Source: Thermococcus sp. CX2 (GTDB lineage: Archaea; Methanobacteriota_B; Thermococci; Thermococcales; Thermococcaceae). Taken from it: a DNA stretch of 64,000 nt. Where the stretch lies: contig NZ_SNUQ01000002.1 in the NCBI RefSeq assembly GCF_012027555.1, positions 372,001-436,000 on the forward strand, in the 5' to 3' direction. The notes under the pieces are model-generated. The model was not told where the DNA came from, searched no databases, and saw only the letters and a list, made by a program, of their open reading frames with translations. This document shows positions 16,641 through 23,000 of this stretch, in pieces; the stretch's first letter is position 1; every line of letters begins with the position of its first letter. A program made the position numbers and the translations under genes.

Positions 16641-17702
16641 TGCCCTCCGCGCTATTGGGGCGTACTCCACGTCAAAGCCGAAAGCTCTCGGTCCAAGCAA
16701 TTCAAGTCCACGCTGAGACCTCCATACTTCAGGGGCAGAAAACCCAAAAACCACGTATTCCTCTCCGAGCCTCACCTCGGAGTTCACAACGGGGACTCCT
16801 TCCGAAGTTAGCATGGTTATCAAATCAGGCACAGTCACATCTACGCTTCCGTTTCTTAACCCGAGGAGGTTTTCATTTTTAAACAGAATCTCATATCTCT
16901 CACCCTCGAATTCCCCTATCCCCTCCAGCCCGATTAGCCCTATGGTAAAGCCTCGTTCTTCCTGCCTCTCAAGTGAGGCACAGACACCCCTGAAGAGAAG
17001 AACGCCCCCAAGCTTCATCAGTTCAGACTCCCACTCCTCACTTTTCAGGGCCCGGCCGATGGCAATAGCCCTACTGAGGGTGCCCTTTAAAAGAACCCGC
17101 TTCGAAACCGCGGCATCGAACGGGTGGGAGGCCACTCCAACCTTTCCAACCGCACTCACCACTGCCCTAACAAGCGTTTCTGCCCTCCTGTCATCCTCAA
17201 TGCGGGGTACAATTAGAACGTCCTCTTCAGGAGTAACGATGGAAAAAGGCGCCATCTTGTGGCCGTGGAGATAATAAACCGAGTGATGGAGTTCAGGGAC
17301 GGCTCTTCCAGCCATGTCCCCATCAACTACTGGAATCCCCAGCTCAGCGGCGGTGGCGAGCGCAACTGCCGTGCTGTTGCCCCCCAGCTCGGTAGGGACA
17401 ACGGCCCCAAATTCTCTCCCCAGAAACTCTTCAAGCTCCAGAACAGCCAAAGCTGCGATATTTCTCTTTGGAGACCCACCCACGGGCCCAACGAAGTACG
17501 GGCTCACCGTAAAAGCATTCTCAGGCAGGTCCTCTACCCCAATGAGCCGTATCTCTCGATCTTTTCTAAGCACTTGTTCAATCCACTTCCAGCCGTTTTC
17601 TGGGCTTCCCCCACCCCCACAGCCAAGAAGCGTACATCCGGCGATCAGATCTTTCAGTTCGTCTTCCCCAAGCCGGCGGCCAGAGTTTTTCAGATTCTGC
17701 AT
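16632..17702 (-). CDS. DUF917 family protein
   Basis: About 356 residues. The N-terminal GCTLLGCGGGGSPENGWKWIEQ and VPTELGGNSTAVALATAAELGIPVVDGD with AGRAVPEL are typical of DUF917. That family includes S-methyl-thiohydantoin desulfurase-like proteins and is often next to hydantoinase-type genes, though none is here. The ATG at 17702 is chosen; a GTG 12 bases upstream is an alternative. Function unknown. Confidence 0.85.
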   Translation of the reverse strand: MQNLKNSGRRLGEDELKDLIAGCTLLGCGGGGSPENGWKWIEQVLRKDREIRLIGVEDLPENAFTVSPYFVGPVGGSPKRNIAALAVLELEEFLGREFGAVVPTELGGNSTAVALATAAELGIPVVDGDMAGRAVPELHHSVYYLHGHKMAPFSIVTPEEDVLIVPRIEDDRRAETLVRAVVSAVGKVGVASHPFDAAVSKRVLLKGTLSRAIAIGRALKSEEWESELMKLGGVLLFRGVCASLERQEERGFTIGLIGLEGIGEFEGERYEILFKNENLLGLRNGSVDVTVPDLITMLTSEGVPVVNSEVRLGEEYVVFGFSAPEVWRSQRGLELLGPRAFGFDVEYAPIARRALR

Positions 17703-17757
17703 AATCAACACCACGCTCAGAGTGTTTCCAAACGAAATTTGGGATAAAAGGATTTAA

Positions 17758-18471
<714 letters not shown>

Positions 18472-18505
18472 GCTTTTCTCTTAAAATTTTCAGCGCCGAT
18501 GCGAA

Positions 18506-18534
18506 CAATCTTTGCAAAGCAAAGCTTGACCAAA
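18506..18534 (+). repeat. Hairpin repeat copy 1 (degenerate)
   Basis: A degenerate copy of the CAAACTTTGC-loop-GCAAAGTTTGATCAAA element: CAATCTTTGC, short loop, GCAAAGCTTGACCAAA. It lies about 35 bases after the tpiA stop in the same sense as that gene. Confidence 0.55.
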
Positions 18535-18836
18535 GTTGAGACTGCCCGATAAAATGTTCCTTTGGATGAGTGCCCCTCTAAATTCTGCAAGTTCGAGAGG
18601 ATTTCCATTTAACAGGAGACTTTAATTTGGAGTCTGCTTTTCTTTTTGACGCCCTTTGGGCGTCGTACTTTGAGAGACTTCTTGAAAATTGGCCAGTTAA
18701 GAAGAAATCCAACTTAAAATCGCCTTTTTGAAGGAGTGCACACTCAAAAATCAGCATTTTTAGAAGCAGTCAGAATTTTCCGCCATCCGTCAGGATGCTT
18801 GAGCGTTAGCGAAAGCAGCACTTTGCGTCAGCAAAG

Positions 18837-18865
18837 CAAACTTTGCAGGGTAAAGTTTGATCAAA
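18837..18865 (+). repeat. Hairpin repeat copy 2
   Basis: CAAACTTTGC, loop AGG, GTAAAGTTTG, then ATCAAA. It has a ten-base stem with one G-T pair, and the same GATCAAA flank as the other copies. Confidence 0.7.
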
Positions 18866-19079
18866 GAGTAAAATTCTCCCAAATTGGCTGGAAAGAGTTT
18901 GCATGTCCTTCCAAAAACTGCGAGCTTACTGTGGGTTTAACCTAAAAGCTGGCAGTTAAAGGGTTTCCTACTTCCTTTAACGTCCCTCGGGCGTTATATT
19001 TGCAGTGAAGCACTGTAATGATAAGCAATTGAAGAGTAAACCACTGGAAATTAGCCGTTTTAGAACGGACATGCCAACC

Positions 19080-19108
19080 TTGATCAAACTTCGCGAAGGC
19101 GAAGTTTG
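19080..19108 (-). repeat. Hairpin repeat copy 3, just downstream of tRNA-Gln
   Basis: CAAACTTCGC, loop GAAG, GCGAAGTTTG, flanked by TTGAT. It differs from copy 4 by a T-to-C change in one arm matched by A-to-G in the other, so pairing is kept. It begins two bases after the tRNA CCA end, on the same strand sense. Confidence 0.75.
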
Positions 19109-19110
19109 TG

Positions 19111-19186
19111 TGGTAGCCCCGCCGGGATTCGAACCCGGGTCGCGGGATCCAAAGTCCCGCATGCTTGGCCGCTACACCACGGGGCT
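19111..19186 (-). tRNA. tRNA-Gln (anticodon TTG), CCA encoded
   Basis: Reading the minus strand: acceptor AGCCCCG pairs with CGGGGCT, D-arm TGTAGCGGCCAAGCA, anticodon stem CGGGA/TCCCG around loop CTTTGGA (anticodon TTG, decoding CAA), T-arm with GGTTCGAATCC, discriminator A, then CCA at 19111-19113. A TATA-like GGTTTATAAGTC lies on the minus strand at about 19212-19223. The tRNA makes the minus-strand GATCC/CCCGC region a common site of spurious short ORF calls. Confidence 0.96.
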
Positions 19187-19298
19187 GCCCGATAAGAAAA
19201 GCTAAGAAGGGACTTATAAACCTTAAGTCCACAGGTAGGTCAACACCCCCCATTCGAATCTTTGCTTCAGTTCTAGCCTTTGAAATAGAGGCAAACTT

Positions 19299-19329
19299 TT
19301 TTGATCAAACTTTGCTTGCGCAAAGTTTG
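19299..19329 (-). repeat. Hairpin repeat copy 4, abutting a stop codon
   Basis: CAAACTTTGC, loop TTGC, GCAAAGTTTG with TTTGAT on the left: a perfect ten-base stem. It abuts the TAG of the zinc-ribbon gene (stop at 19330-19332) on the 3' side, so it would form a hairpin at the very start of that mRNA's 3' UTR. Confidence 0.75.
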
Positions 19330-20004
19330 CTAGAAGGCAAACTCCTCGACGGAGAACTCCTCCATAACCCTCTCGAAGTCGTTCTCTGGAGCGTAGAGGA
19401 AGCCGCAGCGAGTGCACTTGAGCACACCCTTTTCTTCACTCAGCGGGGAGAAGCAGACCGGACAGCGGTACTCCTCTCGGTTGAGCTGTTCATAAACCTC
19501 ATCGCGCATGACAATTAGGTTCAGCTCGGCTTCCCAGTCCTCGTGGAGCATGCCCCAGTAGGGCGTTTCGACGGGATAGAAGTCCTCCAAAATCAGGGCG
19601 TTTATTCCAATGCTCTTAACGCCAGGCGGGAGCTTTCCGGCAGGCTCTATCGAGACCACATACTGGTCGTAGAACTCTATATTCTCTGCCCTAATTGTGA
19701 GACCCTTAGAGAGCCTTGAACGGAGCGGGATGAGCTGAAGGAAGAGGCTCTCCCTCTCGATGTCCCAGCTCGTGCTTATTGAGACGCTCCCCCTTGTGAA
19801 GAACTGGGTGATGTAGCGCTCGTCCCTTTCTTCACCGGCCAAAGAAAAGCCCAGCTTGCCCATCGCACGGTTTAGGAAGTTAGGCCGCGGGAGCTTCTGG
19901 TAGTTAATCAGGTACTCCCCTATCCAGCCGGCTAAGGGCATGGAGTAGCCGACGAAGTACTGCCTCTGGACGTTGAGGTAGGCCACGCTGGGGACGAGCT
20001 TCAT
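19330..20004 (-). CDS. Zinc-ribbon protein of unknown function
   Basis: 224 residues. The N-terminal two thirds are not recognised. The C-terminus carries a zinc ribbon, CPVCFSPLSEEKGVLKCTRCG (Cys pairs about 183/186 and 199/202), followed by an acidic tail. A strong TATA box (CATATATATTT, minus strand, about 20027-20038) lies only ~25 bases before the ATG, so the mRNA is probably leaderless and separate from the polymerase operon upstream, although it follows DP2 by 39 bases. Confidence 0.75.
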   Translation of the reverse strand: MKLVPSVAYLNVQRQYFVGYSMPLAGWIGEYLINYQKLPRPNFLNRAMGKLGFSLAGEERDERYITQFFTRGSVSISTSWDIERESLFLQLIPLRSRLSKGLTIRAENIEFYDQYVVSIEPAGKLPPGVKSIGINALILEDFYPVETPYWGMLHEDWEAELNLIVMRDEVYEQLNREEYRCPVCFSPLSEEKGVLKCTRCGFLYAPENDFERVMEEFSVEEFAF

Positions 20005-20043
20005 AACGAAGAAAGTGGGAAACGAAAATATATATGGATTTCG

Positions 20044-23000
20044 TCAGCCGAAGAAGTCGTCCAGGCTTATGCTCTTCTTTGGCTTTTTCATCTTGGACTT
20101 CTCCTTCTTGATCTCCTTATCGAGACCCTCAGCAGTTGATTTAGCCCAATTTTCGACCTTCCCAGATTTAACTTTCTTCTCCCTGAGCTCCTCGCGCTTC
20201 TTGAACTTGCCATTGGCCTTAAGCTCGTCGAGGTACCCGCTCCTGCCGTTGGACTTGCCGGTCCTGGCCTTTATCATCTTCTCGCAGACGTCGGCGGAGA
20301 AGCCCATCAAAGTCCTCTGCCTTTCGGGGAAGACGTTCTCAAAGAGAGTCTTTATGTCCTTCTCGGTCAGGCATATCCTCTGCCTCGTGTAGTCCAGCAC
20401 GTCGTACTTCGTAACGAGCATTTTAGCCGTCGGAAGGTACTTCTCTATTGCCCCCTTGCTAACGGTCAGCACTATCTTCCCGCCGCACTTAGGGCACTTG
20501 CCAGTTAGCGGTGGTCTCCTGTACTTCGTGTTGCACTTCACACACCTGAACTCCTGTCTGGTGAAGCTCCTTAGATTGCCCCTAAGGTCTGGAACGAGGT
20601 GAGAGTTAATTATAGTCTCAGCGACGTGGTTCTCATCCACAGCCCTTATGCGCTCCGCCAAAGCCAGCTGTCTCGCCACCTTCTCCTCCATATCGCCGAG
20701 CTGTTTGTACAGGCTCATCTTCGGGCCGAGGCCGATATCATCGGTGTCGTGGGTGAACTTTATACCCTCGTACATCTCTGGCTTTCCAAGCCTGTCCTCA
20801 ACGCGCTCTATTATCTTGACCTCCTTGGGCGATTTAAGCTCGTAGGTGGCTTGATAGAACTCGAGCGGATAATACCTGACGACGTCCATGTTGTGAACCT
20901 CGCTGTCTACTTCCCTCGGGTCCAAACGGGTTGTAACGACCAGCGGCGCGTCCATCTTTCCACCGCGCTTCTCGGGTAGGTAGTACTTGCTGAAGTTCAG
21001 CAAAGCATCGAGGAGGAGCATGACTGCATCTTCGTCGCCGTCGCAGTTACGTCTTTTGGCTGCATGATAATACGGATGGGCATAGCCTACCAGGACGTCA
21101 GAGAAGCCTATTATCCGGCCTATGATTCCGGCAGAGGTGTGCGGAGCAAGGCCGATGACGAGATGGCCGATTAGGTCCTCCATCTTCTCCGCGTTGTAGA
21201 ACCGTGGCAGGCCGTAGAACTTCTCCAAGAGGTCGTCGATGAAGCGTGCTACCTTGAGGAGGTACCTTCCAGCTTCATAGGAGAGGATTACATCCTGAAC
21301 TTTGAGCTCGAGTATCTGATCGTCGCTCACCAGGGGCTTTCCTTCGAAGTCGTGGGTGTAGCCGAGCTCGCGGAGCTTCTCGACACTTACACCCACTTCC
21401 CTTGGCCTGAAGTGGGTTATCGGGGCATCGGTCGCATCGAAACGAATCGTGCCGTCTTTAAAGACGTAGACGTCGTTCTTGGCCCTCAGCAAACCTTTCT
21501 CCAGGGGCTCGGCCATCTTGTAGCCGGAGGTCATTCCCTGGACGCCCTTGAGCTTGTCTATGCCGTAGACCTTGACGTTCTCCATCGCCTGGCGGAGCAG
21601 CTCGGCTGGCTTGATTTTTCTCATGGCATAGGGCCTGAGCTCGACGCCGCAGCGGGGACAGCGGAAGTCGAAGCCCTCGGCCTGGCCCTCCGGGTAGTCA
21701 GCGTTGCACTTCGGGCAGTGCCAGAGAAGCTCTTTCCTCGTTCCGCAGCGCGGACAGAGGTGCTCTGGACCAACGTGACCGCACTCCGGACACTTGAAGA
21801 AGGCTATCTCGACCTCAGCGGTCTTGCCTTCTTCGGCGGCCTTCTTGATGTCACGGGAGCTCCCACCGGCCAAGCCAATCGGGAAGAGAACCTGCACTGG
21901 CGGCTTCATCTTCCTCTCCTTGGCCTTCTCGGGCCTGCCCATCCTCGCGCCTATCCAGCTTATGCCCCTATCCCTGAGCTTTATCCTGTTGTTCTCGTTG
22001 ATGATGTCAATGACGGTGTAGAACGGCTTGGTCTTAAACTCCCACTCGAGGTTGCCCAGAGGAGTCAGCAGGGCGGCGCTCCAGGGATACTCAATCACGA
22101 TGACCTTTTTCTTGCCCTCAACACGCTCAAGCCTGTGCGGAAGGCCCAGAAGCTCGAGGTAGCGCTTGATTTTAGGCTCGTTGTCGAGGATTACCTTTTT
22201 GGCGAACTTGTTCTTCATGTGCTCGTCCCACTCTATCTGAGCACCGAGAAGGTATCTTTGAAGCTCCTCGACTTGCTCTGGTTTGAGAGTGTTCCAGTAG
22301 AGGGTGTAGTAGGGGTGAAGCGGTATATCCAGAACCTTCGAGATGTGTATGGCCTCTTCAACGCTCGGCCTCACGCGGAGCGGGTCTTTAAGGAGCCTCT
22401 CCAAAAAATCGGGATCGAGCTCGATATATTCAGCCGCCTCTTCTATTGCTTCTCTATCGTTGTCCTCGAAGGGCCTCAGCTCGACCTCGTAGGTCTCGGC
22501 TATGGCCTTCACGAACTCCTGTATCCACCACTCCTCGACGTAGTTCGCTGGAAGGAGCGTCTGGTTGTTCTCCACGAAGTCGCCGAAGTTCACCAGGGCG
22601 TCGCCGACGTAGAGTATCTCCTCGATTTCATCGCGGACATTCAATGCCGTCTCGTAGTCGTCTACCCTGATAACCGAGCCATCCTTGAGCTTGACTATCG
22701 GCCCCTCGACGGTGGTCGCTGGCGTAACGATACAGCCCTTGCCTGGCCTCTCGGTCTTCATCTGGGTGCCTATCGCTATGAACTCGTCAAGGATGAGCAT
22801 GGTGGCTGGATTGACGCTCCAGGTGGCGAAGCCGCTGACGCGGGAGCGGCCGTACCTCAGGCGGAAGCCGCCGTTCTCGGAAGGCTCGGCGAAGAGGGGC
22901 CTGCCCCCAATTATCTCTTTAGTGTACTTCTTGTTCGGCGCGATGTTGGCCCTAAACTTCTCGTAAAGCTCGTAGTAGAAGCCTCTCTCGACTTTCTCTT

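Follow-up and report, generated by a model that had tools for sequence, protein, structure and literature searches.

Several classes of dispersed palindromic DNA resemble the hairpins analysed here. The REP and BIME elements of enterobacteria are short hairpins in alternating orientation which form extragenic clusters, often behind genes, and show a mosaic build; the present repeats share these traits. They differ from REP/BIME in being archaeal, in having their hairpins joined as tips of fixed palindromes of 240, 270 or 300 bp, and in their focus on tRNA ends. REP elements are tagged by GTAG or CGTC (PMC3733652). Within 6 nt outside either tip, neither motif was found in any of 97 units, and the Y1 transposase family (PF01797) had no match in the host genome; 25 of 94 Thermococcaceae genomes have one. 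The REP label was excluded on both grounds, and a Y1 transposase was rejected as the mover because it is absent from the host genome and from most of the element-rich relatives.

MITEs are likewise short, non-coding, dispersed elements with terminal inverted repeats. However, classical MITEs leave target duplications, whereas none was found for the Thermococcaceae units: across the 97 units, the two flanks did not match over greater lengths than shuffled pairs did. ERIC and other palindromic MITE-like elements are also non-coding, imperfectly palindromic, intergenic and dispersed. Judged by length and description, ERIC (consensus of about 127 bp, enterobacteria) is set apart from the units analysed here, which measure 237–309 bp, fall into three length classes, carry hairpin tips at both ends, are anchored to gene ends and lack a detectable target duplication. 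We know of no mover for ERIC. The BOX, RUP and SPRITE repeats of Streptococcus pneumoniae cluster and insert into one another, and SPRITE is terminator-like (PMC10969869); by description, clustering and inter-insertion are shared with the present units, whereas the tRNA anchoring seen here is not described for these repeats in that review. Archaeal intrinsic terminators offer a further likeness, namely T-rich tracts downstream of gene ends, but these terminators work without a hairpin and do not form a repeat family, and the tracts found here are short and interrupted. The integron attC site, a folded palindrome behind a gene with R boxes and the IntI integrase, may serve as an analogy only.

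A review of prokaryotic MITEs includes archaeal cases but not Thermococcus (PMC10969869), a survey of REP elements took in Pyrococcus furiosus but not Thermococcus (PMC12306157), and the transcriptome paper on T. onnurineus does not mention hairpins (PMC5316973). In the open-access literature we found no published description of the units, which may have been described earlier elsewhere.

Four hairpins in the tpiA to zinc-ribbon interval

The window is a 64 kb stretch of a Thermococcus genome (G000; 1.8 Mb in 25 contigs). A preliminary description of this DNA had claimed four hairpins with one shared stem and a GATCAAA flank, situated at gene 3' ends. All four are present (tips a–d, Table 1). 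A covariance model comprising hairpin and tail, built from 70 genus members, identified exactly these tips in the 64 kb (E values of 5e-8 to 2e-7, 42.6–45.1 bits); the remaining matches were the reverse strands of the same tips and one marginal hit. With up to two mismatches allowed, AAAGTTTGATCAAA matched four times in the window and 0.37 times in shuffled sequence. The consensus stem and flank are exact in tip d alone. Tip a has GACCAAA and tip c GATCAAG at the position of the flank, and the stem of tip b contains a G-T pair; all deviations of a, b and c from the originally described stem are paired or single changes.

The placement at gene 3' ends holds for tip c, which lies 2 nt past the CCA end of tRNA-Gln, and for tip d, which lies 0 nt past the stop codon of the zinc-ribbon gene. 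Tip a starts 34 nt after tpiA. Tip b lies 365 nt past tpiA and is therefore not a tpiA 3'-end copy. The sense orientation ascribed to the copies follows in part from geometry, the two tips of a unit facing outward. The flanking genes have orthologs with 89–96% identity within the genus (tpiA, ortholog search) and 81–87% identity in Thermococcus MAGs (zinc-ribbon gene). In a search of positions 17700–20100 against Rfam only the tRNA reached its gathering score, and the tips matched no known RNA family. The orientation of tRNA-Gln with respect to tpiA in this genome, in G019 and at locus L109 is the opposite of that in most relatives.

Table 1. Positions of genes, tips and palindromic units in the window.
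Feature	Position	Strand	Description	Score or basis
tpiA (triosephosphate isomerase)	17791–18471	+	left flank	ORF list; name from the preliminary description and sequence inspection
Tip a	18506–18528 (with tail, 18506–18537)	+	CAATCTTTGC-aaa-GCAAAGCTTG, tail ACCAAAG	43.1 bits
Unit 1	18506–18836 (about 331 bp)	+	left tip of the first family (a); right tip a truncated long second-family tip	
Apical hairpin, unit 1	18648–18664	+	GACGCCC-ttt-GGGCGTC; conserved apex of aligned 300 bp units	
Long second-family tip, unit 1	18777–18836	-	truncated; starts CTTTGCTGACGCAAAG; outer CAGCC absent	
Tip b	18837–18859 (with tail, 18837–18868)	+	CAAACTTTGC-agg-GTAAAGTTTG, tail ATCAAAG	42.6 bits
Unit 2	18837–19108 (272 bp)	+	complete nested palindrome with tips b and c; adjoins tRNA-Gln	
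Apical hairpin, unit 2	18979–18995	+	AACGTCC-ctc-GGGCGTT	
Tip c	19085–19108 (with tail, 19076–19108)	-	CAAACTTCGC-cttc-GCGAAGTTTG, tail ATCAAGG	43.0 bits
tRNA-Gln (TTG)	19111–19186	-	CCA encoded	ARAGORN; Rfam RF00005, 61.8 bits
Tip d	19306–19329 (with tail, 19297–19329)	-	lone; CAAACTTTGC-gcaa-GCAAAGTTTG, tail ATCAAAA	45.1 bits
Zinc-ribbon (CxxC) protein gene	19330–20004	-	224 aa; stop codon abuts tip d	ORF list

The hairpins are tips of larger palindromic units

The hairpins are the terminal tips of larger palindromic units of about 240, 270 or 300 bp. Across Thermococcaceae, outward-facing tips of 23–25 nt pair up as the two ends of nested imperfect palindromes, and the tips form convergent and tandem clusters. 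The unit lengths occupy three ranges (237–245, 261–278 and 290–309 bp) with modes near 238, 271 and 300 bp, and the gaps between these ranges (246–260 and 279–289 bp) hold a single one of the 97 units. Alignment gave a common order: a tip hairpin with its 7-nt tail leads into a T-rich arm and the apical GACGCCC/GGGCGTC hairpin, after which come the complementary arm, a tail and the second tip. The length classes are probably subfamilies, since their members mostly find their best match in their own class.

Within the window, unit 2 folds at -91.1 kcal/mol (z = -5.9), a value equalled by none of 200 shuffles, and unit 1 has a fold z score of -2.8. The right half of unit 1 aligns to a unit that abuts tRNA-Gly(tcc) elsewhere in the genome, and the unit matches C2:48969–49173 at 83% over 207 bp. 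A 300 bp unit situated between tRNA-Gln and the zinc-ribbon gene in G004 is predicted to fold into two tip hairpins and a long rod (-110 kcal/mol). RNAalifold recovered almost no consensus structure from whole-unit alignments, which are poor because of 30–40% divergence. The gapped global identity between the halves was uninformative, as shuffled controls already reached 0.67–0.68.

Pairing is preserved in the stems

The preliminary description had pointed to a pairing-preserving change between copies, TTCGC/GCGAA against TTTGC/GCAAA, and had concluded that the structure is selected. The change is real and recurs genus-wide. It was assessed in 126 distinct contexts, which include related sequences and were picked irrespective of whether the tested positions pair. 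Among them, stem pair (8,3') was T-A in 94, C-G in 31 and T-G in one, and the outer stem pair was C-G in 76, G-C in 47 and G-G in three. Double changes keep the pairing, but they do not establish that the structure is selected. G-T and A-C mismatches in the tips are about equal (26 and 21, respectively), and this balance gives no sign that selection acts on the RNA strand. The tips could equally have retained their pairing through common descent within subfamilies or through quasi-palindrome correction. At the level of whole units, a half pairs more strongly with its own partner than with a swapped one, with -71.0 versus -60.6 kcal/mol in the 300 class and -46.4 versus -42.2 kcal/mol in the 271 class. 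We also observed that the tail changes together with the stem (GTTT with ATCAAA, GCTT with ACCAAA, and GCGAAG with tail CAAG), a pattern compatible either with the two tails pairing in the rod or with descent in subfamilies.

Distribution in the host genome and in Thermococcaceae

That the hairpins belong to a repeat family with further copies in the genome was borne out by the genome-wide covariance search proposed in the same description, which returned 46 matches at E values up to 0.1. By our count these matches represent about 36 distinct tips of the first family, spread over some 18 loci. A search for CAAAGTTTGATCAAA that tolerated two mismatches gave 35 occurrences in the genome as opposed to one for the reversed control.

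The comparison set consisted of 94 Thermococcaceae genomes, 61 of them from the host genus. The first tip family is present in 58 of these 61, with 5–53 matches each, and also in three smaller genera and part of a fourth; it is absent from all nine genomes of genus g12. Matches to a second tip family, CARCCCTT..AAGCGYTGRCGGAA, occur in 67 of the 94 genomes, but not in g12 or among the controls. One genome (G003) holds the second family only, and two (G019 and the incomplete G083) hold neither. None of the plasmid and phage records holds the units of the window. In G007 (loci L286–L299) the units are mostly of the second family, many stand beside tRNAs, and copies are up to 89–92% alike; judging by sequence similarity, this genome perhaps shows the most recent activity among those examined. 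In the host genome the non-tRNA parts of copies are about 70–83% alike, which argues against recent movement there.

Units abut tRNA and gene ends

In a sample of 55 loci centred on tips, for which a tRNA was not a criterion, 24 tips lay 0–3 nt behind a tRNA CCA end; the sample includes one tRNA-Ser ortholog across many species and a few near duplicates, and its loci are not all independent. The spacing is narrow, the spacer after CCA being 2 nt in 34 and 3 nt in 36 of 95 distinct tRNA-abutting tips (70/95 together). A rough count in the host genome placed 14 tips within 14 nt of its 44–45 tRNA ends versus about five at coding ends, 2000 coding genes being assumed and the home-made gene caller missing or misjudging some genes. 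The zinc-ribbon stop codon is touched by a tip in most of the relatives examined, and in two of them the tip contributes part of the TGA stop itself. In G019, where both tip families are missing, the tpiA/tRNA-Gln gap is 79 nt compared with 640 nt in the window genome, and the tRNA-Gln/zinc-ribbon gap about 55 nt compared with 144 nt.

Dispersal and layering

Units at different genes and in different species align over their full length at 62–92% identity. In G007, a block of two units is 89% identical between L292 (984–1543) and L293 (1012–1572); its limits coincide exactly with the outermost bases of a tip at either end, and the flanks are unlike. Orthologous tRNA-Gln and tRNA-Val genes are followed by a first-family tip, a second-family tip or no tip, depending on the species. 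Because orthologous tRNAs differ in their tips and homologous blocks can begin and end at tip edges, the units are best described as dispersed modules; the sequence comparisons indicate that discrete modules have moved or been copied.

Many arrays are layered. In 37 of 69 cases, the tRNA-abutting unit is backed by another unit whose tip or long tip is truncated (20 second-family, 12 first-family and five long tips), with TTCGCCTGCGCGAAG, CTTGCTTCGCAAAG or AG followed by CGCTGGCGG as recurrent remnants. No older tip was recognised in 30 of the 69 cases, some of which end at a stop codon or another module. The order of the layers was first over second family in 23 cases, second over first in 10, first over first in four and second over second in none; the families thus alternate (Fisher p = 3e-6), with the classes being assigned by eye and the cases not phylogenetically independent. 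The window has an example: unit 1 ends without the outer CAGCC that its tRNA-Gly homolog keeps beside the tRNA, and unit 2 is therefore read as the later addition. On this order, unit 2 would have been added between tRNA-Gln and an older unit 1. The recurrent truncation behind tRNA-abutting units suggests addition at the tRNA-proximal end; the recurrent junctions could also be block copies of a composite rather than separate events.

Sequence signals at possible transcript ends

The preliminary description had stated that no T-run follows the hairpins. A hairpin-plus-T scan found no match at tips a–d; behind some tRNA-abutting tips, however, short and interrupted T-rich tracts do occur. Inbound arms contain 0.36 T and 0.24 A, and T exceeds A in 77% of them. 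Within 45 nt of tRNA-abutting tips, T4 was found in 73% versus 54% of shuffled sequences and T5 in 36% versus 26%, a weak excess. At orthologous tRNAs, tip and tail are 0.81–0.90 identical versus 0.53–0.62 in the next 40 nt. On the T content of arms and tracts, it is plausible that the units may act as two-way transcript ends, and an RNA function of the tips is possible.

A proposed insertion element and alternative explanations

Dispersal, tRNA focus and truncated junctions make a mobile or amplified DNA element our first choice. We consider it fairly probable that the units represent a non-autonomous palindromic element of Thermococcaceae which is targeted to gene 3' ends and whose terminal tips are the hairpins. 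Units would enter or be added directly 3' of genes, above all 2–3 nt past the tRNA CCA, and some would join directly at a stop codon. A newcomer would insert on the gene-proximal side, trim the outer tip of the resident unit and displace it away from the gene; the succession tRNA-Gln, unit 2, unit 1 in the window is one layered array of the kind expected. We infer from this scheme that truncation shows which unit arrived first and that the agent is a recombinase or transposase. With less certainty, a resident unit may double as a bidirectional transcript end, in which the hairpin is followed by U-rich tracts; this is proposed because each half is T-rich in the direction of the arriving RNA polymerase, and such a role would make it easier for a genome to tolerate and retain insertions behind its genes. 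The most specific form of the proposal is tentative and rather doubtful as a whole: an archaeal mobile palindrome placed base-precisely past the tRNA CCA, with polarised layered arrays, alternating tip families, a new enzyme and a two-way transcript end.

The tips might instead be hairpins for RNA processing or stability which selection maintains where transcripts end, with the remainder of the unit being incidental. They are indeed the best conserved part at orthologous tRNAs, double changes preserve their pairing, they lie directly at the 3' ends of genes, and some, such as d, stand alone. We nevertheless regard this explanation as rather unlikely, since it leaves complete interior units of set length and internal tips away from any gene unexplained, and G-T mismatches are not in excess over A-C. 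Moreover, first-family tips are missing from three of the 61 genomes of the genus, and both families from all nine g12 genomes. In addition, a hairpin 0 nt past a stop codon would fall inside the ribosome footprint, which counts against it. Spread could also occur without a dedicated enzyme, through gene conversion that involves tRNA loci and the repeats next to them, while quasi-palindrome correction preserves arm complementarity. The balanced mismatches agree with this, as do tRNA-Leu paralogs that are 97% identical over 123 bp of tRNA and flank and the only modest advantage of same-unit over swapped halves. However, blocks shared by loci whose flanks are unlike can be bounded exactly by tip edges, and one tip family stands behind unrelated tRNAs and stop codons that share no flank to pair, so that we judge conversion an unlikely route.

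An element of chromosome structure, in which the long palindromes would bind a nucleoid protein or histone array, would account for the length steps: an archaeal histone dimer spans about 30 bp, which is roughly the increment between the length modes (near 238, 271 and 300 bp). The 5–53 first-family matches in most Thermococcus genomes also agree with it. Yet it does not predict the 2–3 nt precision at tRNA ends or the truncated junctions, and separate subfamilies would give the same length classes; we deem it highly improbable. Roadblocks involving SMC or TrmBL2 might also play a part. Movement as REP/BIME by a REP-associated (Y1) transposase, or derivation from IS200/IS605, would fit small hairpins of alternating orientation in extragenic clusters without target duplication, but it is scarcely credible given the distribution of Y1_Tnp and the tag-free surroundings of all 97 units described above.

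Among dispersed palindromic repeats, tRNA-end anchoring and layered arrays are the unusual features of these units. If the insertion-element reading is correct, nearly every Thermococcus genome would carry a layered insertion record at its tRNA genes, which would account for a large share of the long intergenic stretches in genomes that are otherwise compact. Thermococcus species serve as genetic models in work on how archaea terminate transcription and fold their chromosomes. The units would provide a tractable example of tRNA-end-directed insertion without a known transposase, and a caution that compensatory changes in hairpins of this kind need not imply RNA function.

Variation among tips

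Second-family tips (e.g., at L075, L076 and L212) retain a C-C mismatch, CCC versus GCG, in an otherwise paired stem. The long tips (18777–18836 in the window; L056, L057, L137 and L227) have extra hairpins inserted within the tip stem. An additional module, GTGGGGC..GCCCCACTCCGGGGGTTTGAGAGTACAG, recurs directly outside the distal tip of many units, mostly beside G-type tips, and was observed at L038, L059, L068, L092, L105, L113, L123 and L130.
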